From contig NZ_CP013422.1 in assembly GCF_001718695.1 (NCBI RefSeq), positions 372,001 to 436,000 on the forward strand: DNA of 64,000 nt. The letters run 5' to 3'. Source of the stretch: Burkholderia ubonensis. Its GTDB lineage: Bacteria > Pseudomonadota > Gammaproteobacteria > Burkholderiales > Burkholderiaceae. A program made the position numbers and the translations under genes. The first letter of the stretch is position 1, and the number at the start of each line of letters is the position of its first letter. Positions 5,271-29,214 of this stretch are shown piece by piece. The notes under the pieces were generated by a model. It ran no database searches. It saw only the letters and a list, made by a program, of their open reading frames with translations, and was not told where the DNA came from.

Positions 5271-5301
5271 GGTGCGAAAGCGTCGTGCGGGTCGTCGTGT
5301 T

Positions 5302-6744: not shown

Positions 6745-6748
6745 TGCA

Positions 6749-9168: not shown

Positions 9169-12100
9169 GAGCGGCGCTCCCCGGTGACGTGCAGGGTGGC
9201 CAGCGCATTGGCGAACTGGGCGGCGAGCGAGGGCTTGGCGAGGGGCGCGGCCTGCGCGTGCGGCGCGACGGCGTGGCCGTTGCCCTTGCCGTGTTCGGCG
9301 GGCTTGCCGGCGGCGTTGCCGTGGGCGTCGAAGCGCATCGTCACCTCGCGGCGCACGAGGTTGCCGGCGGCATCGCGCTGCACGAGCGTGACCCGAACGT
9401 CGTGCACGCCGGCGGGCGGCTTGCCGCTGAGTACGCCCGATTGCGCGTCGTAGTGCAGCCACGCCGGCAGCGGTGCGCCGTTGGCGAGCGTGACGGCGGT
9501 GACGGCCGCGTCGTCGGCGCCCGGCGCCTGCGCGTCGCGGGTGGCGGGCGTCTGCACCAGCGTCCGCACGTTCACCGCGAAATCCTGGCCGGCACGATGC
9601 AGCGGATGCACGTCGATCGGCGCCAGCGGATGAGCAGCCGGCGTCGCGCCTTCGATCCCGGCCGGTACCAGCGAATCGAGCGGCCGCACGTGCGTGTCGC
9701 CGAGCGAACGCTCGCGCGCACCGTGGCTCGCGAAGGTGAAGGTGTCGCGCGTGCCGATCGAACCGACGTCCCGCTGGCTGGTCGCGCCGAATGCATCGAG
9801 CACGATCAGCGGACTCGATACCCCGTCGGACTGGCCGAGGCTGTCGTCGGCGAGCAGCGGCGCGGCGTGCGGCAGGCCGATCGGCATGGCGCCGGTTTGC
9901 TCGCGGTCGGGTTGACCGTTCTGGTCGTGCGGCAGCACCCATTGCGGCAGGATCGGCGTGCCGACCGGCTGCGCCGTGCCGACGATGGTCAGCGTGCGCG
10001 TGAGCGGCGCGCTGGTCTTGACGCCGTCGCCGACCGTGAACACCAGCGTGCGCGTGCTGCCGGTGTGCTCGGCCTGCGTATGGAGATAGCCGACCGCGGT
10101 GAGCGCGGCCTGCCATTGCGCCAAGGTGGCGTTGCCGCTGGCCGAGTGCAGCGTGAGCGTGCCGTGCGCGGCGTCGAAGCTCGCGGCGATGTCGCCGGTG
10201 GCCGCGCCTGCCGCGAAGCTCAGCACGTCGTGCTGGGCGTCGAAGGCGCCGCTGAAGGCGATCGTGGCGGTGGTGGGCGCCGTGGCGTTCAGATCGGTCA
10301 GCGTGATGCCGGCGCCGACCGACACCGGGACGGTGACGCGGCCGCCCGCCGTATAGCTCAGTTGCGTGCCGTCCACGCCGAGCAGTGGCGTCTGGTGCGT
10401 CGCCGTGACCGACACGCTGCGCTCCAGCGCGGCGCTCGTCTTGACGCCGTCGTTGATGGTGAAGCCGATGCTGCGGGTGGTCGTGTCGGGCGTGACGGCC
10501 GTGTCGGTGTAGGTGACCGAGCGCAGCGCGGCCTGCCATTGCGCGAGCGTGGCGGTGCCGCCCGCGGAGACGAGGGTGAGCGTGCCGTGCGCGGCGTCGA
10601 AGCTCGCCGTGATGTTGCCCATCGTGCCGTCGTTGCTGAACGCGAGCACGTCCTCGCCGGCGTGGAAGCCCGCGCCGATCTGCACGGTGGCCGAGGCCAG
10701 CGTGGCGTTGTCGAGGTCGCTCAGCGTGAGGCTGCCGTCGATCGTCACCGGTACGGATGCGGCGTTGTCGCCCGCCACGAACGCGGCCGGGCCGCTGCTG
10801 GTGGTGGAGAGCGTCGGCGTCTGGTCGGTGGTGGCGACGGTCACGTCGCGCGTGATGGCGACGCTGGTCTTGGCGCCGTCGCTGACCGCGAAGCCGATGG
10901 TGCGCGTGGCCGTGTCGGGCGTGACGGCCGTGTCGGTGTAGGTGACCGAGCGCAGCGCGGCCTGCCATTGCGCTAGCGTGGCGGTGCCGCCCGACGAGAC
11001 GAGCGTGAGCGTGCCGTGCGCGGCGTCGTAGGCGGCGGTGATGTTGCCCATCGTGGCGCGGTCGTTGGTGAACGCGAGCACGTCCTGCCCGGCGTGGAAG
11101 CCCGCGCCGATCTGCACGGTGGCCGAGGCCAGCGTCGCGTTGTCGCGGTCCGACAGCGTGATGCCCGAATCCACCGTGACCGGCTGGGACGGCGCGTTGT
11201 CTGCCGACACGAACGCAGTGCTGCCGCTGGCGGTCGAGCCCACGAGCGGCGTCTGGTCGGTGGCGGCCACGCTCACGTCGCGCGAGTAGGCGGCGCTGGT
11301 CCTCACGCCGTCGTTGATGCTGAAGCCGATGCTGCGGGTGGTCGCGTCGGGCGTGACGGCCGTGTCGGTGTAGGTGACCGAGCGCAGCGCGGCCTGCCAT
11401 TGCGCGAGCGTGGCGGTGCCGCCCGCGGAGACGAGGGTGAGCGTGCCGTGCGCGGCGTCGAAGCTCGCCGTGATGTTGCCCATCGTGCCGTCGTTGCTGA
11501 ACGCGAGCACGTCCTCGCCCGCATGGAAGCCCGCGCCGATCTGCACCGTGGCCGAGGCCAGCGTCGCATTGTCGAGGTCGCTCAGCGTGAGGCCGCCGTC
11601 GATCGTCACCGGTACGGATGCGGTGTTGTCGCCCGCCACGAACGCGGCCGGGCCGCTGCTGGTGGTGGAGAGCGTCGGCGTCTGGTCGGTGGTGGCGACG
11701 GTCACGTCGCGCGTGATGGCGACGCTGGTCTTGGTGCCGTCGCTGACCGCGAAGCCGATGGTGCGGGTGGCCGTGTCGGGCGTGACGGCCGTGTCGGTGT
11801 AGGTGACCGAGCGCAGCGCGGCCTGCCATTGCGCGAGCGTGGCGGTGCCGCCCGCCGAGACGAGCGTGAGCGTGCCGTGCGCGGCGTCGTAGGCGGCGGT
11901 GATGTTGCCCATCGTGGCGCGGTCGTTGGTGAACGCGAGCACGTCCTGCCCGGCGTGGAAGCCCGCGCCGATCTGCACGGTGGCCGCGGCCAGCGTCGCA
12001 TTGTCGAGGTCGGTCACCGCGATGCCGGTGTCGATCGCGACCGGCGTGGATGCCGCGTTGTCGGCGGCCACGAACGCGGCGCTGCCGGTGCTGCTGGTGG

Positions 12101-15100
12101 ACAGCAGCGGGGTCTGCTCGGTCGGCGTGACGACGATGGTGCGCGTCAGCACGTTGCTGAACTGCGAGCCGGCGCTCAGCGAAAAGCTGACGGTGCGCGT
12201 CGCGTCGTTCGGCGTGACCTGCGTGTCGCTATAGGCCACCGAGCGCAGCGCGGCCTGCCATTGGGCGAGCGTGGCCGAGCCGTTCGCCGAGGTCAGCGTC
12301 AGCATGCCGGTCGACGTATCGTAGCTGCCGGTGATGTTGCCCATCGTCAGGCCGTCGTTGCTGAACGACAGCCGGTCCTCGCCGCTATACAGGTTGCCCG
12401 TGATCGCGATCACCGCGCCGTCGACTACGTTGCCGAGCGGGTCCGCGACGGTCAGGTTCGGGTCGATCGCCACCGGCGCGGCGCTGGCGTTGTCGCCGGC
12501 CACGAAGCTCGCGCTGCCGGTGCTGGAGGTGCCCAGCGCCGGCGCCGAGCTGATCACGTTGACGCTGTAGTCGAGCGGCGAGCTGGTCTTCACGCCGTCG
12601 TTGACGACGACGCTGACGGTGCGCGTGCCGAGCGCGGCGTTGGCGCCGGTCGAGAACTGCAGGCTGTCGAGCACCGTCTGCCATTGCGCGACGGTGCCGC
12701 CGGTCGAGCTGATCGTCAGCGTGCCGCTGGCCGCGTCGTAGTTGACGTTCATGCCGTTGGTCAGCGTCGAAGGCGGCACGCTGATGCCGAGCGTGTCGCC
12801 GCTTTGCAGACCCGCGGTGATCTGTACCGTGATCGACATCGGTACCAGCGTCGAGCCGCTCACGTTCCGGTCGGTCAGCGTGATGCCGCTGTCGATCGCG
12901 GTGGCGGCCTGGCCGGTCAGGTAGTCGACGCTGTTGCCCGAGGCGCCGACCAGCGGCGTCTGATGGGTCGCCTGTACCACGATCACCTTGCTCGAGCCGA
13001 CGCTGGACTTGGTGCCGTCGTTGACGCTGAAGCTGATGGTGCGACTCGCGGTCTGCGGCACCACGGCCGTGTCGGTGTAGGTGACCGAGCGCAGCGCGGC
13101 CTGCCACTGGGCGGCGGTCGAGCCGCCTGCCGAGGTCAGCGTGAGCGTGCCGGTGCCGGCGTCGAAATGCGCCTGGATGTCGCCGAACGCGCCGTTGCCG
13201 AGCGCGAGCACGTCTTCGCCGCTGTGGAAGTTGCCGGTGATCGCCACGGTGGCCGACGCCATGGTCGCCGAGTCGGAGTCGGTCAGCGTCAAGCCGGCGT
13301 CCACCACGACCGGGGCGGAGGGCGCGTTGTCGCCCGAAACGAAGGTGGTGGTGCCGCCGCTGTCGGTGACGATCGGCGACTGGTCGGTCGGAACGACGTT
13401 GATCGTGCGCTGGAAGTTGGTGCTGACCTTCGAGCCGTCCGTGATCACGAAGTTGATGACGCGCTGCGTGCCGTCCGGCGTGGCGGCCGAATCGGTAAAG
13501 CGGACCGAGCGCAGCGCGGCCTGCCATTGCGCGAGCGTGGCGGTGCCGCCCGCCGAGCTGAGGGCCAGCACGCCGTTCGAGTACGCGCCCGTGATGTTGC
13601 CCATCGTCGAGCCGTCGTTGGTGAACAGCAGCGTATCGCCGTTCGCGTCGTAACCGCTCGCGATCACGACGTTGGCCTGGGTCAGCGTGGCGTTGTCGCG
13701 ATCGGACACCGTGATGCCCGAATCGATCACGACCGGCGTGCTGGGCACGTTGTCGCCCTGCGTGAACGTGAGGCTCCCAGACGAGCCGCCGATCACCGGT
13801 GTCTGGTCGGTATCGGCGACGGTCACGGTGGAGGTGGCCGCGGTGCTGGTCTTGGTGCCGTCGCTGATCGCGAAGCTGACGGTGCGCGCGAGGGCGCCCG
13901 GCGTAATGGCCGTCGAGTCGTAGGTGACGGCCCGCAGCGCGTTCTGCCACTGTGCGAGCGTGGCCTGGTTGCCCGACGAGGTCAGCGTCAGCGTGCCGTT
14001 CGCGTACACGGCCGAGATGTTGCCGTACAGCGCGGTGCTGTTGTTGTTGAAGGCGAGCACGTCGGTCGCCTCGTAATGGCCGGTGATGGTGACCACGGCC
14101 TGCTGGAGCGGGCCGCCGTCCAGATCGCCGACGGTGATGGCGTCGTTGACGGCGACCGCCGTCGAGGCGGTGTTGTCGCCGGCCACGAACGAGACGGTGT
14201 TGCCGCCGGCGCCGATCACCGGCGTCTGGTCGGTGGCCGTCACGGTCACGTTGCGCGTGGCCGTCGAGCTGGTCAGCGTGCCGTCGTTGATCTGGAAGCT
14301 GACCGTGCGTGTGCTGGACGAAGGCACCACCAGGTCGTTCGTGAACTGGATCGAGGCAAGCGCGTTCTGCCACTGCAGCAGCGACGCGCCGCCGGCCGCG
14401 GTCAGCGTCAGCACGCCCGTGCTGCCGTCGTACGCGCCGCTGATGTTGCCCATCGTCGCCGGATTGGCGGTGAACAGCAGCTGGTCGTGATTGCCCTGGA
14501 AGTTGCCTGTGATCGCGACGGTCGCGCTGACCAGCGTCGTGCTGCTGCCGTCGGTGAGCAGAATGCCCGGGTCGACCGCCACCGGCGTCGAGGTGGTGTT
14601 GTCGCCGCTCACGAACTGCGCCGAGCCGCTGTCGGTGCTGACCGTCGGGCCGGCCGTGACCACCATGCTGTGATGCAGCAGCGCGCTGGTCTTGGTGCCG
14701 TCGCCGACGGCGAACGTGATGTCGCGCGTGCCGCCCGTCGTGCCCGTCGCGCTCGCGAACGTGACGGCGTCGAAAGCGTTCTGCCATTGCGCGACGGTGG
14801 CGGTGCCGCCGGCCGACGTCAGCGTGAGCGCGTGCGTGGTCGCATTGTAGCTGCCGATGATGTTGCCATACAGCGTCACGTTCGAGTTGTTGAACGCGAG
14901 CGTGTCGCCGGTCGCGTAGCCGCTTGCGATCGTGACGGCGCCCGAGGTCAGCGTCGGCGTGTCGGCGTCGCTGACGTGCACGTTGGCGTCGACCGCGACC
15001 GCGGCCGAGCCGGCGAAGTAGCTGGTGCTGGTGGCGCCGCCCTCGGTCACGAGCGGCGTCTGGTCGACGGAGGTGACGGTGATGGTGCGCGTGGCCACGT

Positions 15101-16847
15101 TGCTCGCCTCGGTGCCGTCGTTGAACGCGAACGACACCGTGCGGGTGGTGGTGGACAGGTTGGGCGAGGCCTGCGTGCTGAAGAACGTGATCGACTGCAG
15201 CGCGGCCTGCCAGCTGGCGAGGCTGGGCGACCCGCTGCCGGTCAGCGTCAGGACGCCGGTGGCGCTGTTGTAGCTGCCGGTGATGCCGTTTTGCGCGACG
15301 AACGACAACTGGTCGCCGCTCTGCACGTTGGTGATGCGGACCGTGGCGGTGCTTGCCGAGGCCGAACTGGGGTCGGAGATCGTGATGCCGGGGTCCACCG
15401 CCACAGCGGTGCCGCCCACGCCGTTGTCGCTCGAACTCCACGACGCGCTGCCGCTGCTGGTGGTCACCGACGGGCCGTTGTCGGTATAGGCGAGGTTGTT
15501 GAGCGTGGGCTCGAAGCTGCCCGAGTCGTTCTGGTCGATCAGCGAGAACGAGACGATGTTGTTGAAGGCGCTGCCGAGCTGTATCTGGCTCGACACGGTG
15601 CCGGTGAAGCCGCCCACCGCGGCCGTGGCGAGCTGGACCAGCGCGCTCTTCGAGCCGTTGGCGTAGGTGGCCTGGATGTACAGGTCGCCGTTGAACGAGC
15701 TGAGGTCGAAGCTCTGCAGGCTGAACTGGTGGCCGTTGGCGAGCGAGATGGTGACGTTGCTCATCGTCGAGGCGCCGTCGGCGTTGATGTCCAGGACGCC
15801 GTCGGTGGGCGACACGGAGATGTCGCTCGGGAACGGCGAGTTCGACGCGTTGTAGGCGTAGGTGTTGCCGGGCTGGTCGAACGTGTAGACGAGGCCGTCG
15901 AGCGTGAACTGGGACAGGCCGATCGCCGCGAAGTTGTCGGCGGCCGCGCTGTCGTAGGTTTCCGTCGTCACGCCGAGCAGTTCGTTGAACTGCGCCTGGG
16001 CGCTGGCCGATTCGTTCAGCGCGGTGTGGACGTTGCCGACCTGGTATTCGAGCGTCCAGTTGCCGCCGAGCGCGGCCGAGCCGGTCGCGTCGATCGAGGC
16101 GGCCACGTTCAGGTGGGTGATGCCGGCGATCTTCTGTACCAGTGCCTGACCGTCGGCCTGTTGGGCCACGTCGCAGCCGTAGATCAGGAAGTCGCCGCCG
16201 GCGTGCATCGCCGCGCCGATCTGTGCGAGCTGCGTGCTGTAGCCGGACAGATCGCCGTTGGTGAGCCAGGTGGAGCCGACCTGGATCGCGCCGTCGCTGC
16301 CGTGCGAGAGCAGGCTGATCGACTCCACGCCGCGATGGGCCTGCAGGTATTGCGCGATCTGCGCGAGGCCGTCGGTTTTCGCGTCGAGCACCACGTACTG
16401 CGTACCGGCGGGCAGACCGGCGATCAGGACCTGGTAGTTCGCGACGCTCGGGTCGATGAACACGACCTCGGTCTGCGCGGCCGACATCGCGGCGCTGCCG
16501 TCGGTCGTGGCGGCATGTTGCGCTTCCCGTTGCGTCGATGGTGCCTGCTGGCGGTTCTGCGCGAACGGCGAGATCGGGTCGCTGCTCTGCGGCTTGTCCG
16601 CCGGTGCGTTGGGAGCGGCATTATTCGATGTGCCGACCGCGGGCGTGTAGATATGCGCCTCGGTGCGATGGATGACTTCCGCTGGCGCGTGCTCGTGGGC
16701 ATGCGGCTGGGCGGCCACGGCGGCCACCGATGCGTCGTAGACGACACGCGGCTCGAGGGCGAGCAACAGGGGCGAGGCCGCGATGCGCGGGCCGGGCTGG
16801 CTGGCGTTTTGCTTCTGGCGCGCGAACCACTGCTTGATGATCTTCAT
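9165..16847 (-). CDS. Giant repeat-rich surface/secreted protein with LEPR motif and DUF4347 domain
   Basis: A 2560-residue, acidic, Ser/Thr/Ala-rich protein, first gene of its operon. The N-terminus is not a classical signal peptide: a basic patch, then LLLALEPRVVYDAS, the LEPR motif seen at the start of large exported repeat proteins. Residues about 127-285 are a DUF4347 domain with ISLLSHG (H182) and FLIYGCDVA (C225), reminiscent of a clan CD-type His-Cys pair (inference). Thirteen repeats of about 141 residues follow, each with FVAGDN, TMGNIT, GTLTL and LAQWQAALRSVTYTDTAVTP cores. Near the C-terminus is a putative Ig-like segment (LPAWLHYDAQSGVLSGKPPAG). No RTX nonapeptides or obvious type I secretion tail are seen. 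It is probably an adhesin or biofilm matrix protein exported by the four downstream gene products. Confidence 0.85.
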   Translation of the reverse strand: MKIIKQWFARQKQNASQPGPRIAASPLLLALEPRVVYDASVAAVAAQPHAHEHAPAEVIHRTEAHIYTPAVGTSNNAAPNAPADKPQSSDPISPFAQNRQQAPSTQREAQHAATTDGSAAMSAAQTEVVFIDPSVANYQVLIAGLPAGTQYVVLDAKTDGLAQIAQYLQAHRGVESISLLSHGSDGAIQVGSTWLTNGDLSGYSTQLAQIGAAMHAGGDFLIYGCDVAQQADGQALVQKIAGITHLNVAASIDATGSAALGGNWTLEYQVGNVHTALNESASAQAQFNELLGVTTETYDSAAADNFAAIGLSQFTLDGLVYTFDQPGNTYAYNASNSPFPSDISVSPTDGVLDINADGASTMSNVTISLANGHQFSLQSFDLSSFNGDLYIQATYANGSKSALVQLATAAVGGFTGTVSSQIQLGSAFNNIVSFSLIDQNDSGSFEPTLNNLAYTDNGPSVTTSSGSASWSSSDNGVGGTAVAVDPGITISDPSSASASTATVRITNVQSGDQLSFVAQNGITGSYNSATGVLTLTGSGSPSLASWQAALQSITFFSTQASPNLSTTTRTVSFAFNDGTEASNVATRTITVTSVDQTPLVTEGGATSTSYFAGSAAVAVDANVHVSDADTPTLTSGAVTIASGYATGDTLAFNNSNVTLYGNIIGSYNATTHALTLTSAGGTATVAQWQNAFDAVTFASATGTTGGTRDITFAVGDGTKTSALLHHSMVVTAGPTVSTDSGSAQFVSGDNTTSTPVAVDPGILLTDGSSTTLVSATVAITGNFQGNHDQLLFTANPATMGNISGAYDGSTGVLTLTAAGGASLLQWQNALASIQFTNDLVVPSSSTRTVSFQINDGTLTSSTATRNVTVTATDQTPVIGAGGNTVSFVAGDNTASTAVAVNDAITVGDLDGGPLQQAVVTITGHYEATDVLAFNNNSTALYGNISAVYANGTLTLTSSGNQATLAQWQNALRAVTYDSTAITPGALARTVSFAISDGTKTSTAATSTVTVADTDQTPVIGGSSGSLTFTQGDNVPSTPVVIDSGITVSDRDNATLTQANVVIASGYDANGDTLLFTNDGSTMGNITGAYSNGVLALSSAGGTATLAQWQAALRSVRFTDSAATPDGTQRVINFVITDGSKVSTNFQRTINVVPTDQSPIVTDSGGTTTFVSGDNAPSAPVVVDAGLTLTDSDSATMASATVAITGNFHSGEDVLALGNGAFGDIQAHFDAGTGTLTLTSAGGSTAAQWQAALRSVTYTDTAVVPQTASRTISFSVNDGTKSSVGSSKVIVVQATHQTPLVGASGNSVDYLTGQAATAIDSGITLTDRNVSGSTLVPMSITVQITAGLQSGDTLGISVPPSTLTNGMNVNYDAASGTLTISSTGGTVAQWQTVLDSLQFSTGANAALGTRTVSVVVNDGVKTSSPLDYSVNVISSAPALGTSSTGSASFVAGDNASAAPVAIDPNLTVADPLGNVVDGAVIAITGNLYSGEDRLSFSNDGLTMGNITGSYDTSTGMLTLTSANGSATLAQWQAALRSVAYSDTQVTPNDATRTVSFSLSAGSQFSNVLTRTIVVTPTEQTPLLSTSSTGSAAFVAADNAASTPVAIDTGIAVTDLDNATLAAATVQIGAGFHAGQDVLAFTNDRATMGNITAAYDAAHGTLTLVSAGGTATLAQWQAALRSVTYTDTAVTPDTATRTIGFAVSDGTKTSVAITRDVTVATTDQTPTLSTTSSGPAAFVAGDNTASVPVTIDGGLTLSDLDNATLASATVQIGAGFHAGEDVLAFSNDGTMGNITASFDAAHGTLTLVSAGGTATLAQWQAALRSVTYTDTAVTPDATTRSIGFSINDGVRTSAAYSRDVSVAATDQTPLVGSTASGSTAFVSADNAPSQPVTVDSGITLSDRDNATLASATVQIGAGFHAGQDVLAFTNDRATMGNITAAYDAAHGTLTLVSSGGTATLAQWQAALRSVTYTDTAVTPDTATRTIGFAVSDGAKTSVAITRDVTVATTDQTPTLSTTSSGPAAFVAGDNAASVPVTIDGSLTLSDLDNATLASATVQIGAGFHAGEDVLAFSNDGTMGNITASFDAAHGTLTLVSAGGTATLAQWQAALRSVTYTDTAVTPDTTTRSIGFTINDGVKTSAALERSVSVTATHQTPLLGVDGTQLSYTAGGRVTVPVSVGAGITLTDLNATAPTTATIAFSGAFDAQHDVLSFAAGAATGDIAASFDAAHGTLTLHSASGNATLAQWQAALTAVGYLHTQAEHTGSTRTLVFTVGDGVKTSAPLTRTLTIVGTAQPVGTPILPQWVLPHDQNGQPDREQTGAMPIGLPHAAPLLADDSLGQSDGVSSPLIVLDAFGATSQRDVGSIGTRDTFTFASHGARERSLGDTHVRPLDSLVPAGIEGATPAAHPLAPIDVHPLHRAGQDFAVNVRTLVQTPATRDAQAPGADDAAVTAVTLANGAPLPAWLHYDAQSGVLSGKPPAGVHDVRVTLVQRDAAGNLVRREVTMRFDAHGNAAGKPAEHGKGNGHAVAPHAQAAPLAKPSLAAQFANALATLHVTGERRS
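9980..15480 (-). repeat. Thirteen tandem ~141-codon repeats in the giant surface protein
   Basis: Thirteen copies are countable from the invariant WQ of the ...QWQxAL... core. Copies 1-8 (high coordinates) are divergent; copies 9-12 are nearly identical to each other. This pattern suggests an old array with recent amplification near its C-terminal end. Confidence 0.85.
10435..11991 (-). repeat. Recent 861-bp tandem duplication (two-repeat unit)
   Basis: About 700 bases starting near 10435 recur 861 bp further on, starting near 11296, with only scattered substitutions. For example, a 142-codon stretch differs at about three residues. The unit equals two protein repeats (287 codons), so copies 9/11 and 10/12 are paired duplicates. 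The array is a likely site of copy-number change by recombination and of assembly collapse. Confidence 0.8.
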
Positions 16848-20352: not shown

Positions 20353-20979
20353 TCAACGCTGCTGAGCCGCGACGCGCAGGCCGAGCGCGATGAAGATCGA
20401 GCCGATGATCTTGCCTTGCCAACGCGTCAGCCACGCGAGCCGCTTCACGAGCCGGCCGAGCGGACGGACCGAGCAGGCGATCAGCGTCGTGTACAGCGAA
20501 CTGAGCGCGACGAAGATCAGGCCGAGCACGGCGAATTGCACGAACGTCGAGCCGCGTTCCGGATGCACGAACTGCGGCATGAACGCGAGGAAGAACAGTG
20601 CGGTTTTCGGGTTCAGCACTTCGGCGGGGATGGCCTGCAGATACGCCTTCAGCGGCGTGACGGGCGACAGCTTCGGCAGCGACGGGTCGGACGGCTTCTC
20701 GATCAGCGCACGCACGCCGAGGTAGATCAGGTAGGCGGCGCCGACCCACTTCACGACGTTGAACGCGAGCGCGGACGTCATCAGCAGCGCCGACAAACCG
20801 ACGGCCGCGAACAGCGTATGCACGAAGTCGCCGCTGGCGACGCCGAGGCCGGTCAGGATGCCGGTCTTGCGGCCGCCCTGTACGGTGCGGCTGAGGACGA
20901 GCAGTACGGCGGGGCCGGGGATCAGGAACAGACCCAGGACGACGGCGGTGAAGGTGGTCAGCGTGGTCAGGTCGAACAT
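20353..20979 (-). CDS. LysE/RhtB-family amino-acid exporter
   Basis: A 208-residue inner-membrane protein with about six hydrophobic helices. It has the hallmark N-terminal FLIPGPAVLLVLSRTVQGGRKTGILTGLGVASGDFVH, the central YLIYLGVRAL and the middle NPKTALFFLAFMPQFV. These motifs define the RhtB branch of the LysE exporters, which export homoserine, threonine, leucine or related metabolites by proton antiport. The ATG at 20979 was chosen because the upstream open frame lacks membrane character. It leads a probable two-gene unit with the methyltransferase. Confidence 0.9.
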   Translation of the reverse strand: MFDLTTLTTFTAVVLGLFLIPGPAVLLVLSRTVQGGRKTGILTGLGVASGDFVHTLFAAVGLSALLMTSALAFNVVKWVGAAYLIYLGVRALIEKPSDPSLPKLSPVTPLKAYLQAIPAEVLNPKTALFFLAFMPQFVHPERGSTFVQFAVLGLIFVALSSLYTTLIACSVRPLGRLVKRLAWLTRWQGKIIGSIFIALGLRVAAQQR

Positions 20980-21351
20980 GGCGGCTCCGGCAGGGTTGGC
21001 GCAGCGGCGGGGATGGGGGGATTGTAGTCGGTTTGTTCGGCTCGCTTGCGCCGACGTCGATCTCAAGTTATTCGGACCTTGCCCTCCAACAGATTGCGGT
21101 GGTCGAAAACGGTGCAGAATCGCGTTGGTGAGGTGAGCGGCGGCGGGACATCGGTTCGTCTCTACGGGGATGCGCGGCTTCTGATGCAGAGCATTATGGA
21201 CTCGACTACGCCAGTCCCTGACCCAGGCGGAGTGCCGGGGCACCCCTCTGGGATTCACCAGGAACTATGAACGGTACGGCAGGCACATATGAATTGTTGT
21301 GAATCCAAGTGCCAAGACGGTTATCCATTTCCTTTTTAAAAGCGGCCCGAA
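20980..21351. other. Intergenic region upstream of the LysE gene
   Basis: About 370 bp that must carry the exporter promoter on the minus strand. Base composition falls toward the right end. No RNA gene or clear operator was recognised. Confidence 0.4.
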
Positions 21352-22030: not shown

Positions 22031-23527
22031 TCACCCACCCCCCAACACCAACGCAGCCCCTTTCTCCCCGATCATCAACGCCGGCCCCTGCGTATGCCCG
22101 GACGTGATGCGCGGCATGATCGACACATCGATGACCCGCAGCGCCTCGACCCCGTGAACGCGCAACTGCGGATCGACCACAGCATCGTTGCCGGTGCCCA
22201 TCCTGCACGTGCCGACCGGATGGCTGAGCGAGCCCGCATTGCTCAGGATCCAGTTGCGGATCTCGGCGGGCGTGCGCACCGACGGGCCGGGCGTCTGCTC
22301 CTCGCCGCGCCAGGCCGACAGCCCGGGCGCGTTGCCGAGCGAGCGCATCAGCTCGAAGCCCTGCACGCATTGCTCGAAGTCGCCCGGCGCCGACAGGAAG
22401 TTCATGTCGATCAGCGGCGCGGCGGTCGGATCGGCCGAGCGCAGCGCGACGCGGCCCCGGCTTTGTAGCCGCATCATGTCGCCCGTCACCGAATAGAAAC
22501 TGCGCAGTTCCTCCTCGGACTGGCCGCACGTATAGCGTCCGCGCATCATCTCGGCTGCATTGGCCGGCTGGCCGTCGGCATTCGCGTTCGCCCAGACGAT
22601 CGCGTAGCCCTCGTTGACGGGCTGGTCGAGGATCGGCTGCCGCGACGTCCAGATGCCCTGGAAGATCAACGCGTCCATCAGGTTGGCGCCCACGCCCGGC
22701 AGGTCCATCTGCACGGGGATGCCGAGTTGCCGCAATTGCGCGGCGTCGCCGACGCCCGAGCGCATCAGGATCTGCGGCGAGTTGATCGCGCCCGCGCACA
22801 GCAGGATTTCCCGGTCGGCGATCGCACGTACGCGCGCGCCGCCGCGGACGTAGTGCACCGCGGCCGCGCGCCGCGTGCCGTTGAACTCGATCCGTTCGAC
22901 GAGCGATTCGGCGGCGAGCGTCAGATTCGACTGCCGCGCGAGCAGCGGCTCGACGTAGCGCTGGTAGCTCGTCACGCGCTGGAAGCGCGTGTCGATGGTC
23001 GAGCGTAGCGGCGACACGCCGGCCATCGGCCGCCCGTCGTTGTAGTTCGGGTTGTAGCGGTGGCCGAGCTGCTCGCTCGCGCTCACGAACGCCTCGCCGA
23101 ACGCGTTGCGCGTCGTGGTGGTCGGTTGCAGCATGCGTTCGACCTGCTCGAAGTGCGGCGCGACGTCCTGGTAGCGCCAGCCGTCGCAGCCGTACCGGCT
23201 CGCCCACTGATCGAAGTCGGCAGGCGCGCCGCGCACGTAGACCATGTCGTTGTGCGCGGTGCAGCCGCCCGTCACCTTCGCCCGCCAGACGTCCATCACG
23301 CGATCGTTCATGCGCGTCTGCGGCACGCTTTTGTAACCCCAGTGAATCGCGCCGATGCGGTACAGGCAGTTGATCTGGTTCGGGTCGCGGATCGGCGGGA
23401 AATGCGACGCGAGCGGCCCGGCCTCGAGCAGGAGCACCTTGATCGACGGGTTGTCGGCGAGCCGCCCGGCGACGATGCTGCCCGCCGAGCCGGAACCGAT
23501 GACGATGTAGTCGTAGCGTTCGTCCAC
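22031..23527 (-). CDS. GMC-family FAD-dependent oxidoreductase
   Basis: A 498-residue glucose-methanol-choline oxidoreductase. It begins with the FAD-binding YIVIGSGSAGSIVAGRLAD (GxGxxG). The second GMC signature is around ILLCAGAINSPQILMRSGVGD, and the active-site histidine region is LSHPVGTCRMG with a second His in ITSGHTQGPALMIGEKGA near the C-terminus. Such enzymes oxidise alcohols to aldehydes or ketones in the cytoplasm. It is the last gene of the minus-strand cluster that starts with two tiny proteins and three haem-oxygenase-like enzymes, 37 bp after the last of them. The likely role is therefore oxidation of an intermediate or side chain produced by those enzymes. The substrate is unknown. 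Confidence 0.88.
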   Translation of the reverse strand: MDERYDYIVIGSGSAGSIVAGRLADNPSIKVLLLEAGPLASHFPPIRDPNQINCLYRIGAIHWGYKSVPQTRMNDRVMDVWRAKVTGGCTAHNDMVYVRGAPADFDQWASRYGCDGWRYQDVAPHFEQVERMLQPTTTTRNAFGEAFVSASEQLGHRYNPNYNDGRPMAGVSPLRSTIDTRFQRVTSYQRYVEPLLARQSNLTLAAESLVERIEFNGTRRAAAVHYVRGGARVRAIADREILLCAGAINSPQILMRSGVGDAAQLRQLGIPVQMDLPGVGANLMDALIFQGIWTSRQPILDQPVNEGYAIVWANANADGQPANAAEMMRGRYTCGQSEEELRSFYSVTGDMMRLQSRGRVALRSADPTAAPLIDMNFLSAPGDFEQCVQGFELMRSLGNAPGLSAWRGEEQTPGPSVRTPAEIRNWILSNAGSLSHPVGTCRMGTGNDAVVDPQLRVHGVEALRVIDVSIMPRITSGHTQGPALMIGEKGAALVLGGG

Positions 23528-23564
23528 GGGCTTCTCCTCGTGCGTGTGAGCTGGCGCGGCGCCG

Positions 23565-25052
23565 TCAGCCGCGCGGGTCGAGCAGCCGGCCGTACGGGCC
23601 GTGCAGCGCGAGCGTCGGCTGCGCGCCGTAAAAGCCGGCGATGCCGCTCCACGCGCGGTGGTTCAGTTCGAGCAGGAACAGGATGCGGCGCATCGCGATC
23701 GTCTGGCGCACGGGATCGATCGCGGCGATCTGCTCGAACGTGTCGCGCGAGATGCTGTTGTGGTTCAGCGATTCGTTCAGTTCCTCGTGGTCGCCGGACA
23801 CGCTGTGGAACGCGTCGTTGTCCTTGACCGCCGCCATCAGGCGCAGCGACATCTTCGGCGGCTCGCCGAAGATGCCCTCGACGACCATGATCGCGGCGAA
23901 CGACGACACCGGGTCGACATCGGCGAGGAGCGTGAGCGCGTCGACGAACGCGAAGTGCAGCGGCAGCGGCACGATCTGCGCGAGCATGCGCGGTGCGACG
24001 CCGAGCGCTTCGCAGGTCGTGCTTTCGAGCGCCTCGTGGCCGTATTCCTCGCCGTAGTAGCGGAGCATCATCGTGCGCAGCGGAATGCTGAGCCGCATGC
24101 TCAGCAGCGGCGCGATGATTTCCACGAAGCGCCGCGTCACGTGGTACTGCTCGATGAACGGGCCGGCGACGAGCGGCGAATAGCCGCCGTTCAGCGCGTC
24201 CACCGCGCTCACGTACGGATTCTCGCCCCAGAGGTTCAGCGTTTCGCGCGTGATCAGCTCGGTCTGTCGCATGAACTCGAGCCCGTTCGACAGCGACACG
24301 GCCGGCACGTCCGCGCACGGCAGCCGCTGCGCGTCTTCACCGCTCGCGGCGACGAGGCTCGACGCGACCAGCCACAGATGCGACATCAGGTCGTGCTCGT
24401 CGTACAGCCCGGCCGTGTCGAACCGGGCGTCGTCCGCGGCGCTGGCGCGCGGCGCGCCGGAGAACGCATCGAGCATCAGCGCGACGGCTGCCAGCGTGAG
24501 CGGCGCGGCGCGGCGGAAGTATTCGAACTCGATGCGCAGCAGCGCGAGATGGAAGTTGGGTTCGACCTGCGCGTCGAACGGATCGTCGTGCGCGTCGAAC
24601 AGCGTGCGCGCGGAGGCGGGTCGATCGAGGTGCAGCCGGAGCGTCGCGGCATCGCGCGCGACCGCGTCGCGCCGCGCGGCGTCGAGCGTGGCGAGGCTGG
24701 CCGCGACCGTCTGCGCGATGCACGAGTCGATCCGCGCGGCCTGCGCGGCAAGCGCATCGGCGGCCGTGTCGTCGGCCTCGCCGATCAGCGAATGCGTGTC
24801 GAGAAACGTGCCGAGCGCGTGCCAGCCAGAGTCGGGTTCGCTTTCGCGCAGCGTCCACCACAGCGGCGACGCCGTGTCGGTCAGGCTGTGGAGTTGCGCG
24901 GCGATCTGGTCCGCGGCGTCGCTGGCGTCGAACGCCAGCCGGTATTCGTGCGCGCCCGCGCGCATGCTGACGAGCGCCGAGCCGGGCTCGTGGTGGATCG
25001 CGTCGACGACGAGGCGCGGCGACTGATAACGCTGAAATGTCCAGAGTTCCAT
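23565..25052 (-). CDS. Haem-oxygenase-like diiron-type enzyme (long form)
   Basis: A 495-residue protein, started at ATG 25052 with GAGGG upstream, 8 bp after the previous gene. Residues about 250-475 form an all-helical haem-oxygenase-like domain (iron-containing redox enzyme type). Likely metal ligands are EEYGH (E336, H339) and Hx3Nx4H (H422, N426, H431). The first 245 residues include a possible PqqD-like start and helical sequence without clear ligands, perhaps a degenerate second domain. Members of this superfamily oxidise amines, fatty acids or amino acids using O2 at a dimetal site. Paralogy with three neighbouring genes and linkage to two tiny proteins suggest oxidative modification of a peptide; the reaction is unknown. 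Confidence 0.72.
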   Translation of the reverse strand: MELWTFQRYQSPRLVVDAIHHEPGSALVSMRAGAHEYRLAFDASDAADQIAAQLHSLTDTASPLWWTLRESEPDSGWHALGTFLDTHSLIGEADDTAADALAAQAARIDSCIAQTVAASLATLDAARRDAVARDAATLRLHLDRPASARTLFDAHDDPFDAQVEPNFHLALLRIEFEYFRRAAPLTLAAVALMLDAFSGAPRASAADDARFDTAGLYDEHDLMSHLWLVASSLVAASGEDAQRLPCADVPAVSLSNGLEFMRQTELITRETLNLWGENPYVSAVDALNGGYSPLVAGPFIEQYHVTRRFVEIIAPLLSMRLSIPLRTMMLRYYGEEYGHEALESTTCEALGVAPRMLAQIVPLPLHFAFVDALTLLADVDPVSSFAAIMVVEGIFGEPPKMSLRLMAAVKDNDAFHSVSGDHEELNESLNHNSISRDTFEQIAAIDPVRQTIAMRRILFLLELNHRAWSGIAGFYGAQPTLALHGPYGRLLDPRG

Positions 25053-25060
25053 GGCGACCC

Positions 25061-26056
25061 TCAGTGGAAGATGCGCGGCAGCGGCGCGCTGTCGTCGGCG
25101 TAGTAGGCGAGGATGGTGTCCTCCTGGCGCACCAGCGTCTCGACCATCAGCGAGACGTTGCGTTTCGTGACCGTGCAGGCTTCGGGATCGATCGCGGTGT
25201 CGAGCGCCATCAACTGCCGCGAGATGTCCTCGTGCCGGTACGTGTCGTTCAGGTCCGCGTGTGCGCGCAGCGGCCGGTAGAACGCCTCGGGCATGCCGAG
25301 CGCGACGCAGCGCGCGTCGAACGCGTCGATGAATGCAGGCTGCGCGCGCTCGAACAGAAACAGGCTCGCCTTGAACGACAGCGGATGCTGGCGCGCGTGC
25401 ACGCCGAGCGCGGCCGCGAGCGAGAACGTCGCGGGCAGCGGCTGGTGCTGCTCGATCTGCGCCTCGGCGAGCCCCACGGCCTTCAGCGACGCCTCGAGAA
25501 ACCGGTCGTGGCCGAGCTCCGATTTCAGGAAGTCCTGCAGCAGCGTGCGCTCCGCGGGACTGGCGGCCCAGCCGAGCGCGGGCCCGATCAGCCCCGGCGC
25601 CGCGCGCACGATCCAGTAATACTCGAGCGTATAGCCGATCAGCTGGCGGCGCGTCGCGCGTTGTTCGACCAGCGCGCGCAGGAATGCCGAGCGTGCGCTG
25701 CGCGCGGCGGTGCGCTCCGCGATGCGGCGGATGTCGCGGTAGAGCTGCGCGCCGCTGGTCGCCACCGCGGCGCGGCGCGGATCGGATTCGATCAGCAGGC
25801 GCAGCACGTTGAAATCGGCGAGCAGCGGCGGGATCTTGTCGGCGATGCGGGGCGAGCGCGCGGCCAGTTCCTCGGGCGTCATGCCGCCCGCGTGCAAATC
25901 GCCGATCAGGCGCGCGACGTCGGTCGCCTCGTCGGGCGCGAAGCGGAACGCGCATTGCCGGCCGCCGGCGCTCAGCACGGCGCCGCTATCCGTGAGCTGC
26001 GAGGTCACGATGCCGCGGAATTTCGGCATCGCGGGAGCTGCGAGCGAGCTGTCCAT
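25061..26056 (-). CDS. Haem-oxygenase-like diiron-type enzyme with PqqD-like start
   Basis: A 331-residue protein. Residues about 15-85 resemble a PqqD-type winged helix (QCAFRFAPDEATDVARLIGDL ... IPPLLADFNVLRLL). The rest is helical with candidate ligands E145 (TLEYYW), ExxH in KSELGH (E180, H183) and Hx3Nx4H in HADLNDTYRH (H266, N270, H275). This last motif matches the paralogues encoded on either side. It sits 10 bp after the first haem-oxygenase-like gene and 8 bp before the long form, clearly in one operon. It is likely an O2-using dimetal oxidase or oxygenase. Acting as a non-catalytic partner is possible because the first acidic ligand pair is EL rather than EE. Confidence 0.72.
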   Translation of the reverse strand: MDSSLAAPAMPKFRGIVTSQLTDSGAVLSAGGRQCAFRFAPDEATDVARLIGDLHAGGMTPEELAARSPRIADKIPPLLADFNVLRLLIESDPRRAAVATSGAQLYRDIRRIAERTAARSARSAFLRALVEQRATRRQLIGYTLEYYWIVRAAPGLIGPALGWAASPAERTLLQDFLKSELGHDRFLEASLKAVGLAEAQIEQHQPLPATFSLAAALGVHARQHPLSFKASLFLFERAQPAFIDAFDARCVALGMPEAFYRPLRAHADLNDTYRHEDISRQLMALDTAIDPEACTVTKRNVSLMVETLVRQEDTILAYYADDSAPLPRIFH

Positions 26057-26066
26057 GGTGGTTGCC

Positions 26067-27032
26067 TCACAGGTCGGACACGCGCCGCAGCAGCGGCGCG
26101 TCGGATGTGTAGTAGTGCCAGACGGCCGTGTAGAAGTCGTCGTAGAGCTCGACGAACAGCCGCAACTGGGCCTTCATGCGTGCGACGGTGGCGGCATCGA
26201 GCACCGGCACGTCGTGAAAGATCGCGCGTGTCAGGCTGCCGTGCGCCGCGTTGAGGTTGATGGTTGCGTGCGTCTTGAGCGGGCCGACGAGCCCGTCGGG
26301 CAGTTGCGCGCGCTCGCACGCCTGGATGAAGCTGTCGTGCTGCATGCCCTGGCCTTCGAGCAAGCCGAGCGTCGTGAAGAAGAACAGCGGATCGCTGTGC
26401 GACCAGTACGCGAGCGCATTGCACAGCCCCATCGTCTCGGGCAGCGGGATCGCGTCGAGCATGTCGGCGCGGCTCAGCCCCGCGAAGTTCAGCGCGCGCA
26501 GCAGGATCTCGTCGTGTCCGTACTCTTCGGAGAAGAAGCGGTTGAGCGTCAGTCGCACCGGCGTGCTCGGCACGTAGGACAGCACGGGCGCATCGAAATA
26601 GCTTTCGCGGAACAGGAAGTGCCAGTTCTCGATCACCATGCCGATCGCGAGCCGCTCGGGCAGGTCGCCCGGCGAGCGCGTGTCGAGGCATGCGCGCCAG
26701 AACGGGTTGCGGTAGAGCGTCTCCTCGCAGTACTGCTCGACGAGATCCTCGATCTCGAGGATCACTTCCGCGCCCGCGCGACTCGCGACCGGCGCGTCGT
26801 CGTCGATCAGGCCGGCCTCGTCCAGCGTGCCGACCAGCTCGTCGAGCAGCGCGCGCGGCAACGCGGGCTCGTCGCGCGCGATCTCGTCGAGATCGCGGCG
26901 GCCGTCGAACTGGTCGAGCGTGCGGGCCAGCGCGGCGGCGGCGTGCGGGCCGTCGGGCAGCGCGTCGACGTGCCCCAGCGTCACCGGCGTCACCAGCCGC
27001 GGACGGGATGCGGGCGATTCGATCTGTTCCAT
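26067..27032 (-). CDS. Haem-oxygenase-like diiron-type enzyme with PqqD-like domain
   Basis: A 321-residue protein with GGGAG before its ATG. Residues about 15-80 look PqqD-like (ALARTLDQFDGRRDLDEIA ... LLDELVGTLDEAGLID). In known systems PqqD folds bind the leader of a precursor peptide. The helical part carries E135 (VIENWH), EEYGH (E170, H173) and Hx3Nx4H (H255, N259, H264), the pattern expected of a haem-oxygenase-like dimetal site. The gene follows the smaller of the two tiny proteins by 76 bp. It is the best candidate for the enzyme that first acts on that peptide. No haem-binding proximal histidine pattern was seen, so it is unlikely to be a true haem oxygenase. Confidence 0.75.
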   Translation of the reverse strand: MEQIESPASRPRLVTPVTLGHVDALPDGPHAAAALARTLDQFDGRRDLDEIARDEPALPRALLDELVGTLDEAGLIDDDAPVASRAGAEVILEIEDLVEQYCEETLYRNPFWRACLDTRSPGDLPERLAIGMVIENWHFLFRESYFDAPVLSYVPSTPVRLTLNRFFSEEYGHDEILLRALNFAGLSRADMLDAIPLPETMGLCNALAYWSHSDPLFFFTTLGLLEGQGMQHDSFIQACERAQLPDGLVGPLKTHATINLNAAHGSLTRAIFHDVPVLDAATVARMKAQLRLFVELYDDFYTAVWHYYTSDAPLLRRVSDL

Positions 27033-27108
27033 GATGAGACTCCCGAAGTGGGCGCACGGGGCGGGCGCGCGGCTCGCCCCGCAACTGGCTGAATCGGTGC
27101 CGCGGCGA

Positions 27109-27288
27109 TTACAGGTGGATCGCGATCAGCGTCGGCGTGCCATCGGGCTTGTTGACGGTGACAAGGTAGTGCTTGCCGCCGAGCGTGCCCGTATTGATGT
27201 AGAGATCCACCTTGTGGCCGTCGAACACGTTCTTGGCCGGTTCGGCGTTCTTCACTTCATGAACCGTGGGCTGATGGGTATTTGCCAT
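27109..27288 (-). CDS. Tiny 59-residue protein, candidate precursor peptide A
   Basis: Encoded from ATG 27288, with GGTG about 8 bases upstream; a GTG at 27297 is the alternative start. The polar N-terminal half (MANTHQPTVHEVKNAEPAK) is followed by a more hydrophobic core (DLYINTGTLGGKHYLVTVNK) and the tail PDGTPTLIAIHL. There is no signal peptide and no cysteine. Size, position directly before PqqD-like enzymes, and a leader-like polar half fit a ribosomally made, post-translationally modified peptide. It shares with peptide B a GG-x3-4-hydrophobic-x3-K-x(1-2)-DGxP arrangement. A small accessory or structural protein is the alternative. The name and product are unknown. Confidence 0.65.
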   Translation of the reverse strand: MANTHQPTVHEVKNAEPAKNVFDGHKVDLYINTGTLGGKHYLVTVNKPDGTPTLIAIHL

Positions 27289-27432
27289 ATCGATCACCGT
27301 TTTGAAAATTAAAGGAGCTCCGGCCTGATTCGAATAATCGGGCTGGATGATTTACAGTGAAATCCGGAATGCAATGTGAATATCGGATATATTCCTTTTC
27401 ATCCGTCGTGCGGACGATTCCTTAACTGATAT

Positions 27433-27639
27433 TCATCCGCACATGGTCATGAACGCGGCCCGTGCCGAAAGCGGCTGACCGTCCGCATGTTTTGCAATCG
27501 CAATCTTGAGATCGGCCCCGCCGACGATCAGCGCGTGACGATCGGCGCCGGCGCGCGGGTCGACCGTCTGCAAAGCGTCGACTTCCTTGACGGCGACCTT
27601 GGTGCCTCGTGGCACGATGACAGTAAGCGGTTCACTCAT
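27433..27639 (-). CDS. Tiny 68-residue protein, candidate precursor peptide B
   Basis: Begins at ATG 27639 with an excellent GGAGG Shine-Dalgarno sequence 6 bases upstream, implying strong expression. The sequence starts MSEPLTVIVPRGTKVAVKEV, has GGADLKIAIAKHADGQP in the centre and ends AFMTMCG, with a single penultimate-region cysteine. It is the first gene of the minus-strand cluster. The shared GG ... K ... DGxP arrangement suggests distant relationship to peptide A, 144 bp downstream. It may be a second substrate of the haem-oxygenase-like enzymes or a partner of peptide A. The family is not recognised. Confidence 0.65.
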   Translation of the reverse strand: MSEPLTVIVPRGTKVAVKEVDALQTVDPRAGADRHALIVGGADLKIAIAKHADGQPLSARAAFMTMCG

Positions 27640-27985
27640 AGCAACCTCCGACGATGAGAACGGGCGCAAGCGCCCCGCCGCCATTAGCGCGGCACGCAGC
27701 CGTGCCGCGGCCAGGCGGCACCGGAGCGGCGGCATCTCCGATCTTCAAATGGGTTGGGATGATTCCAAGGAAGGGGCCCCTATTTATATTCTTGTAAAAA
27801 CTAACTTTATTTTAAACGTCCGCTGATTTCTTGAATTGGCGGAATCATGGAGATAATCTAGTACAACGTTTGCGCAATACAAGATTGATTTAATCGCCCG
27901 TGCGATTATTTTCTCTTAATCAGCGCATGCGTCGATCGTTTCGAAAAATGCATCGGACGATGGTCGAACAACCGGAGACGAAGAC
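27640..27985. promoter_or_regulatory. AT-rich divergent promoter region of the peptide/oxygenase cluster
   Basis: This 346-bp gap separates the minus-strand operon from the divergent oxygenase gene. Its middle (27775-27920) is strikingly AT-rich for this genome. An 8-bp palindrome TTGCGCAA lies at 27870-27877 between two TACAA direct repeats. On the minus strand TTGTAT and TAGATT, 16 bases apart, could be a sigma-70 promoter. One bidirectional control site for the whole locus is likely; H-NS-type silencing would fit the composition. Confidence 0.5.
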
Positions 27986-28993
27986 ATGGGCGAGATGACG
28001 GAAATCTGCGTGCGGCCGAGGCTGCGGCATTGCACGCTCGTGGCGCTGGCCGGCGAGCGGCTGGCGATGATCGTAGGCGACGAGCGTTTCGAGCTCGAGC
28101 AGGTGCAGGGCAGCCGCGACGCGTTCCTGCGCATGAAGCGCTACCTGGACGGGCGACATACGCTCGATGACATCGCGCAGCGTTCGGACGTGTCGATCGG
28201 CAGCGTGCGGACGATCGTCGGGCAACTGGACGAACTGGGCCTGCTGCGCCGCGAACAGCCGGCCGCCACGATCGCCGTGGCGGATTTTCTCGAGCGGGTC
28301 GAGCGCAGCACGCGGATGTGGCGCGCGCAGATCGGCTATCACCGGTTGTTCGGCATGCTCGAGCGGGGCGAGGCAAGCCGCGACCTGATCGCCGGGCTGC
28401 TGCTCGAGACCTACCACTTCGTCCGGCTCGCGCCGCGTCACGTCGGCGCTGCGATCGCGCATTGCCGCGACCAGGCGACGGCCGAGCTGCTGTGCGGCTA
28501 CCTGGCCGACGAGTACGCGCATCACAGGCTGATCGCTGCGTCGGTCGAGAAGCTGGGCATTCCGCGCGAGCAGATCCGCGACGCGCATCCGGTGATCGGC
28601 ACGCTGTCGCTCGTGAACATGCTGTGCGAGGTCGGCCGCGCGTCGTCGCTCGGTTACCTGTGCTGCCTGAAACTGATCGAGGCGAGCCCCGAGGACGAGG
28701 CCGGCGCGCGCGGCGCGTGGCGCGAGATCGCGCGCGCCGCCGTGCTCGATGCGGACGTGTTCGACGGCCTGATGCGCCATATGCGCATCGACGTCGGCGC
28801 GGGCCATGCGGGCCTGCTGGAGCAGGCGCTTGCGCACACAACCGACGTGTCGGCCGACGCCGCGCACGTCGCGATCAACCACATGCACGACGTGAAGCAC
28901 GCGTTCGATCAGTTTCATGACCAGGTGATCCAGTACTACACCGACATGTCGAACTACGTGCCGCGGCTCAAGGTCGATTTCTTCTCGCTATGA
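27986..28993 (+). CDS. Divergent haem-oxygenase-like diiron-type enzyme with PqqD-like domain
   Basis: A 335-residue protein with GGAGACGAAGAC upstream of the ATG. Residues about 15-90 resemble PqqD (FLRMKRYLDGRHTLDDIA ... GQLDELGLLRRE). The helical remainder has E141 (LLLETYH), DEYAHH (E176, H179) and an Hx9H pair (H274, H284) in place of the Hx3Nx4H of its three paralogues, so one ligand may differ. The C-terminus is aromatic and acidic (IQYYTDMSNYVPRL). It faces away from the other cluster genes but shares their promoter region, so it is probably co-regulated. It may carry out a separate step, for example on the second peptide. Confidence 0.72.
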   Translation: MGEMTEICVRPRLRHCTLVALAGERLAMIVGDERFELEQVQGSRDAFLRMKRYLDGRHTLDDIAQRSDVSIGSVRTIVGQLDELGLLRREQPAATIAVADFLERVERSTRMWRAQIGYHRLFGMLERGEASRDLIAGLLLETYHFVRLAPRHVGAAIAHCRDQATAELLCGYLADEYAHHRLIAASVEKLGIPREQIRDAHPVIGTLSLVNMLCEVGRASSLGYLCCLKLIEASPEDEAGARGAWREIARAAVLDADVFDGLMRHMRIDVGAGHAGLLEQALAHTTDVSADAAHVAINHMHDVKHAFDQFHDQVIQYYTDMSNYVPRLKVDFFSL

Positions 28994-29214
28994 GGCGGGG
29001 GGTGCAGGCGATGAGCCTGCGACGGTGTCGAGGTCTTCAATCTCGGCGGCGCAGCGGCCGGGTTCGGGCTGATCGGCACGACCGCGCAGTTGCCGCGTCC
29101 GAGCCGAAACGACTGCAGCGGGGTGCGCAGGAAAGCGATCGCTTTGCCGGCCGATGGGACAGCGTCTGCAACGGACGCCAATGAAGGGGAAGAAAGGGAA
29201 GAAGGAAACCACAA

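Follow-up and report, generated by a model that had tools for sequence, protein, structure and literature searches.

What do two very small proteins do beside four haem-oxygenase-like (HO-like) enzymes and a flavoprotein oxidoreductase? This question is raised by positions 22031-28993 of a stretch of 64,000 nucleotides from Burkholderia ubonensis (positions 372,001 to 436,000 of contig NZ_CP013422.1, which is contig 3 of a genome of 6.68 Mb), hereafter called the window. HO-like oxidases carry out unusual reactions on C-H and C-C bonds, and an earlier note on this DNA had proposed that the enzymes oxidize one or both of the tiny proteins. We consider it likely that the locus is a module of the type that makes ribosomally synthesized and post-translationally modified peptides (RiPPs), in which the second tiny protein, T2, is the precursor, the enzymes HO1, HO2 and probably HO3 oxidize its conserved C-terminus and tailoring follows. 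The gene order on the minus strand is T1, T2, HO1, HO2, HO3 and the GMC oxidoreductase, with HO4 divergent on the plus strand:

27433-27639, minus strand: T1, 68 residues, ending ...MTMCG; it co-occurs with HO1 and is under purifying selection.
27109-27288, minus strand: T2, putative precursor peptide of 59 residues, ending ...PTLIAIHL-stop; this C-terminus is nearly constant in the tiny proteins whose genes precede HO1 at all 19 loci.
26067-27032, minus strand: HO1, HO-like protein of dimetal-oxidase type, 321 residues, with an N-terminal winged-helix-type domain that is possibly like PqqD or a RiPP recognition element (RRE).
25061-26056, minus strand: HO2, second paralogue, 331 residues, with the architecture of HO1 by alignment.
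23565-25052, minus strand: HO3, 495 residues, with predicted N-terminal strands and helices, a helical middle and a C-terminal HO-like domain.
22031-23527, minus strand: accessory GMC-family flavoprotein oxidoreductase, 498 residues, which accompanies the module at 7 of the 19 loci.
27986-28993, plus strand: HO4, divergent HO-like paralogue, 335 residues, with H-x3-D-x4-H and an N-terminal domain matching helix-turn-helix (HTH) families.
22046-29000, no strand: extent of the transferred module, alignable to loci L019 and L020 within and not beyond.

The coordinates and strands, including the divergent HO4, were verified, as was the tight spacing of 8-76 bp in the centre of the cluster (76 bp between T2 and HO1, then 10, 8 and 37 bp along HO1-HO2-HO3-GMC); T1 and T2 are 144 bp apart. 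The good ribosome sites claimed for both tiny genes were found in part, because that of T1 is strong (GGAGG) and that of T2 only moderate. Neither T1 nor T2 matched any Pfam family, and the single NCBIfam match of T2 was far under its cut-off. HO1 and HO4 matched Pfam PF14518 above the cut-off, HO2 and HO3 below it.

The evidence for a precursor lies at the end of T2. We compared 19 loci with an HO1 orthologue (the window, L018-L020, L022-L026, L028, L030-L036, L064 and L065), and in every one of them a single open frame upstream of HO1 on the same strand ends in the near-fixed motif (A/P)(V/I)-His-Leu-stop. The last six residues or so hardly vary, while the total length of the T2-type peptide ranges from about 17 to 60 residues. 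The end reads PTLIAIHL in Burkholderia, Paraburkholderia, Dyella and Sphingomonas, RPVLIPVHL in Robbsia and the genomes G1113 and G1128, KPVLIAVHL in Tistrella, RPVLVAVHL in Chloroflexota (a peptide of 19 residues) and TIVAVAVHL in Rhodococcus (17 or 23 residues). A wide regular expression for the motif gave 19 matches in 431,008 bases (21 loci), exactly one per HO1 locus, and none in the control HO-like loci L021 and L066 or in ten shuffles, which were plain shuffles in 3-kb blocks and did not preserve dinucleotides. A narrower expression gave 18 matches among the 16,039 stops of the 21 loci; it missed the Rhodococcus peptide, which the wider expressions catch. Since the motif was learned from the same loci, it is tested only by the shuffles, by its occurring once per locus and by the control loci.

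The short T2-type forms have clear ribosome sites, in a check that placed the start coordinates of L030 and of the short L024 form one codon late. Between the window and L019 or L020, the nonsynonymous divergence (dN) of T2 was 0.03 against a synonymous divergence (dS) of 0.10-0.16, and that of T1 was 0.03 against 0.28-0.37, indicating purifying selection. Both T1 and T2 thus look like real genes, being conserved with dN well under dS. At all 19 loci a tiny gene accompanies the putative modifying enzymes, as in RiPP systems, where an encoded precursor adjoins them, and it joins a constant core to a variable remainder; only in Tistrella (L023) does another gene, that of a thiamine-pyrophosphate (TPP) enzyme at 7635-9824, sit between the peptide and HO1. 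From this we infer that T2 is the substrate of the HO enzymes. The expectation that the tiny genes would be conserved beside the enzymes was therefore borne out for T2 at every locus, and for T1 at 4 of 19. Of 65 Burkholderia genomes, four contain T1, and these are the four with an HO1 orthologue; T1 was undetected in the other 15 of the 19 HO1 loci and belongs to the Burkholderia copies of the module, all four of which also have full-length HO4. T1 may be a second substrate or an accessory protein.

What kind of enzymes adjoin this peptide? HO1 is 28% identical to HO2, 25% to HO3 and 23% to HO4, and HO1, HO2 and HO3 diverge in parallel. The fold of HO-like dimetal oxidases (HDOs), a helical bundle proposed in the earlier note, is supported for HO1 and HO3, although one metal-ligand position is Asn. 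The nearest solved relative by sequence, and the top sequence match in the Protein Data Bank (PDB), is MboA, the mangotoxin acetylenase of Pseudomonas (PDB 9YPI/9YPL/9YPM), which shares the HO-like fold and the spacing E-x2-H-(D/E), E, H-x3-(D/N)-x4-H. We compared ligands, and built the HO1 tree described below, in 15 of the 19 loci, leaving out L018, L025, L033 and L034 as near-duplicates. Five of the six metal ligands of MboA are retained at its spacing in 15/15 HO1, 15/15 HO2 and 14/14 HO3 sequences, and the sixth, Asp176 of MboA, is Asn in all 44. The ExxH and Hx3Nx4H patterns noted before were accordingly found in HO1-HO3 as E-x2-H and H-x3-N-x4-H, whereas HO4 of the window has H-x3-D-x4-H and, by alignment, all six ligands. 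MboA was not among the 50 structure matches listed for HO1 and HO3, but its absence does not speak for a difference, since the structure library stops at 2026-04-08 and might not include MboA.

The N-terminal 80-90 residues are predicted to be winged-helix-type, with helices at 29-41, 48-54 and 60-72 in HO1, and with strands within 12-40 followed by three helices in HO3. Their weak matches include the PbtF RRE (E 2.8e-4) as against winged helices of O-methyltransferases (E 1.2e-4). Among 16 such domains, NCBIfam gave daptide_HExxH for three (best E 0.028), PqqD_rel_X for two and a lasso PqqD model for one, all weakly; the Pfam matches were to HTH families, and a PDB search found a PqqC/PqqD-type fusion, 5VRD, at E 0.0077. 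In the structure searches the HO fold filled the lists, so that these say little about the domain. The PqqD-like domain suggested earlier therefore has RRE and PqqD matches on its side and competing winged-helix and HTH families against it, and judged by such sequence matches the HO1 domain is possibly RRE/PqqD-like. Natural fusions such as 5VRD also join an HO-like fold to a PqqD domain, but their domain order differs from that of HO1, and product and precursor are unrelated. PqqC itself is cofactor-free. HO4 is a candidate for either an enzyme or a sensor/regulator.

It appears that these genes have moved together. In nucleotide alignments of window positions 15001-36000, L019 aligned over 29000-22046 (93% identity) and L020 over 28994-22046 (91%), and the flanks could not be aligned; of eight loci aligned, only L018 (genome G064) shared the flanks of the window. 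The ends match 22031-28993, so that the boundaries given in the earlier note are those of the transferred module. The LysE, Cys/Met PLP enzyme, argininosuccinate synthase and FUSC genes were rejected as parts of the module, being kept in L018 alone of the eight loci compared. Paraburkholderia L026 aligned over 27445-21994 plus an 81-base piece (27932-27852), with the T1 stretch missing.

Besides the four Burkholderia genomes out of 65, those with an HO1 orthologue belong to Paraburkholderia, Dyella, Sphingomonas, Robbsia, Tistrella, Rhodococcus, a metagenome-assembled genome (MAG) of Chloroflexota and two further Burkholderiaceae. In the HO1 tree (15 rows, 5 of 12 inner branches starred, very long branches for L024 and L023), the Burkholderia and Paraburkholderia copies join Dyella (88/89) and Sphingomonas (92/99) and not the Burkholderiaceae loci L022, L064 and L065. 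Together with the sharp borders of the block, this grouping fits its horizontal transfer. Sampling of genomes with the A1 profile at E 1e-25, in which at most 6-8 candidates per genome were scored and weak matches could be lost, gave 1/274 for the class and 1/299 for the phylum (in each case the genome under study itself), 1/350 for Chloroflexota (the already known G342), 6/250 for the genus Sphingomonas (all already known) and 6/299 for the family, three of them new, namely G1113, G1128 and G1029, the last of which is very divergent. Plasmid records queried with HO3 or the Rhodococcus HO1 gave nothing new. A viral origin was set aside, as one viral-contig scan with A1 gave no relative.

The content of the module varies between lineages. 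Rhodococcus (L024) has HO1 and HO2, but the 24.8 kb read there contained no HO3. Outside Burkholderia, neither a close HO4 nor T1 was detected, except for an HO4-like stretch upstream of T2 in Paraburkholderia atlantica (L026 1717-2345; 55-65% identity in two pieces), which is possibly decayed or frame-shifted. Burkholderia genome G021 has a divergent HO1 relative only: at L021 8641-10239 there are two adjacent HO-like stretches that share about 23-27% identity with HO1/HO4, and the motif peptide was not found there. Nor was it found in G1029 (L066 6561-14420), where an HO-like protein stands with an MFS transporter, an amidohydrolase, a class I/II aminotransferase and a class II aldolase.

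The GMC oxidoreductase, counted in the earlier note as part of the set, adjoins the module in the window and in six other loci (L018-L020, L025, where the contig end cuts it, L026 and L028); as it adjoins just 7 of the 19 modules, we regard it as a lineage-specific extra outside the core. A GMC gene in L065, 33% identical and about 5.5 kb beyond the peptide, was excluded from this count. We searched 15 of the 19 loci (L018, L025, L033 and L034 left out) for aminotransferase, GNAT and EamA genes. Class III aminotransferases, 39-65% identical to each other, were found in four (L022, L064, L065 and L036), and GNAT acetyltransferases also in four (L022, L064, L065 and L024, the last copy about 30% identical). 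An aminotransferase and a GMC gene at the module occurred together in none of these 15 loci. Both enzymes would act on an oxidized carbon, and this is the main hint to the chemistry. Exporters were EamA in L022, L064 and L065, MFS in L024 and an ABC ATPase with two permeases in L036; a TldD/TldE pair was seen only in L036 (Chloroflexota), the flanks of the other loci being annotated in part or not at all. In Sphingomonas no GMC gene was found in six of six loci and no aminotransferase, EamA or GNAT gene in the four of four searched; the neighbours in L030, the one Sphingomonas locus with scanned flanks, are unrelated. T2-HO1-HO2-HO3 may be the minimal set in this genus.

Some further neighbours were observed. 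An open frame with a terminal Rieske [2Fe-2S] domain lies upstream of the Chloroflexota peptide (L036 1627-3231) and might supply the oxidases with electrons. In Robbsia (L022 7961-9358) and G1113 (L064 7026-8429), a regulator fusing GntR and aminotransferase domains, 70% identical between the two, is oriented divergently from the peptide; we take it to be of the MocR type, and its pyridoxal-phosphate-linked control would fit an amino-acid-like product. LysE-type exporters, 40% identical, lie at 20353-21258 of the window and close upstream of the G1128 peptide (L065 10409-10975).

How could such genes work together? We suggest that T2 would serve as the precursor peptide and that HO1, HO2 and probably HO3 would be dimetal oxidases acting on its end, ...A/P-V/I-His-Leu-COOH. 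In MboA, according to the portion of its report available to us, the C-terminal carboxylate of a peptide is bound to Fe1 and the C-terminal side chain is oxidized (PMC13185094). By analogy, the conserved His-Leu end adjoining MboA-like enzymes would be best explained as a tail entering the metal site, where its carboxylate would most likely be bound. The terminal Leu and/or the penultimate His would be oxidized, that is desaturated, hydroxylated or cleaved, while the strand that precedes the core may be gripped by the N-terminal winged-helix-type domains. Tailoring of the oxidized end would fall to the GMC enzyme (alcohol/carbonyl) in the window, whose late action is plausible, and to the class III aminotransferase or the TPP enzyme in other lineages. 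The result would be either a modified C-terminal peptide or a small molecule released from that peptide, and this product would be exported and, in some lineages, N-acetylated. Up to three oxygen-using iron-type enzymes would probably rebuild the end of a tiny protein into a natural product.

Parts of this scheme have precedents. Deletion of varO in the thiovarsolin cluster of Streptomyces varsoviensis gave a mutant without the desaturated Arg products, according to the part of the report available (PMC6511847), and an HO-like protein inside a ribosomal-peptide cluster can therefore work in a RiPP pathway. In daptides (MpaA/B/C/D/M) a ribosomal peptide is oxidized at its C-terminal residue and then transaminated by a PF00202-type aminotransferase with RRE assistance, as far as the available part of that report goes (PMC10036551); an oxidized C-terminus can thus be passed on to an aminotransferase. 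The MftG of mycofactocin likewise ties a GMC enzyme to a RiPP system.

The differences are equally clear. The accessible text on MboA describes a tripeptide substrate from ATP-grasp ligases, not a ribosomal one, and a single HDO with the reductase MboB, and mentions no N-terminal winged-helix domain (PMC13185094), whereas here up to three HO-like enzymes, with Asn in place of Asp176 and such a domain in HO1, stand beside an encoded peptide. Thiovarsolins, in the available part of their report, have a precursor in which APR cores repeat, thioamidation by YcaO/TfuA, a single HO-like enzyme and no C-terminal His-Leu core (PMC6511847); we recognized no YcaO/TfuA among the genes scanned and no APR repeats in the T2-type peptides. 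Daptides rely on an NAD(P)-dependent alcohol-dehydrogenase-like MpaC and an invariant C-terminal Thr, and no HO-like enzymes are mentioned in the accessible text (PMC10036551); our peptides end in His-Leu in 19 of 19 loci, and no iron-alcohol-dehydrogenase family was found among the genes scanned. The window GMC scored 255.9 bits to TIGR03970 against a cut-off of 387.45, no mft genes were recognized among the genes scanned, and choline dehydrogenase models outscored TIGR03970, yet also under their cut-offs. As their defining features were not found, membership of the daptides, thiovarsolins and mycofactocin was set aside. A 2026 review of HO-like oxidases cites, in its available part, the thiovarsolins as the single ribosomal-peptide precedent (PMC13108848), and a literature search, with most subscription papers outside its reach, found no published description of this gene set.

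The peptide might instead be sacrificed as a source or carrier, a special case of the RiPP proposal, with which its odds overlap: the C-terminal residue or residues would be oxidized and cleaved to an amino-acid-like antimetabolite and the rest recycled. This is possible, though we hold it tentatively. The module is accompanied by exporters of small-molecule type (EamA, MFS and, in L065, LysE), by class III aminotransferases at four of the 15 searched loci and by GNAT acetyltransferases, which are often self-protective, and the forms of 17-28 residues hold little besides the core; but no obvious releasing protease was seen among the genes scanned, save the Chloroflexota TldD/E pair, and LysE is not retained alongside the module in L019, L020 and L026. 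It is rather doubtful that the Asn variants are in part catalytically dead, leaving one of them, or HO4 with its full Asp set, as the oxidase and T1 as a potential HO4 substrate in Burkholderia. The constant Asn of HO1-HO3, the Asp of HO4 in the window and the joint presence of T1 and full-length HO4 in the four Burkholderia copies would agree with this, whereas the other five ligands are invariant in HO1-HO3, unlike a decaying site, and HO4 and T1 were not closely detected outside Burkholderia, the L026 stretch excepted.

Being a conserved small protein beside enzymes, under purifying selection and with a C-terminal tail that might fit into the metal site, T2 could also be a small subunit, activator or inhibitor whose C-terminus plugs the active site. 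We think this unlikely, as a peptide of 17-19 residues retains the end alone, and the tailoring enzymes of the different lineages, together with TldD/E and the exporters, suggest a pathway to a product. Nothing was found in favour of a chance neighbourhood of unrelated genes, whose probability we judge to be negligible, given that they occur together in Pseudomonadota, Actinomycetota and one Chloroflexota MAG, and given the sharp borders and the parallel divergence.

Farther off in the window (3156-16847), an open frame of 2560 residues (9165-16847) has two genes with HlyD domains next to it, one of which also matches peptidase M50 weakly; these perhaps encode a large secreted protein with export parts.

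If T2 is the precursor, as we favour, the locus belongs to a kind already known, RiPPs with HDO chemistry, and is possibly a new class among them. We see about an even chance of a class defined by an (A/P)(V/I)-His-Leu core and two or three RRE-bearing, Asn-variant HO-like oxidases, which would leave the peptide with a non-carboxylate or carbonyl/amine end in place of its own C-terminus, or have the latter excised as a small antimetabolite, with an interchangeable GMC, aminotransferase or TPP enzyme and a horizontal spread over probably three phyla. The C-terminal motif together with HO1 provides a sequence tag for finding more loci, and the Asn-for-Asp dimetal site raises a testable question about its function. 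In some lineages, a module of two or three oxidases with a minimal substrate of 17-28 residues would be a genetically simple system in which to examine this chemistry on encodable peptides.

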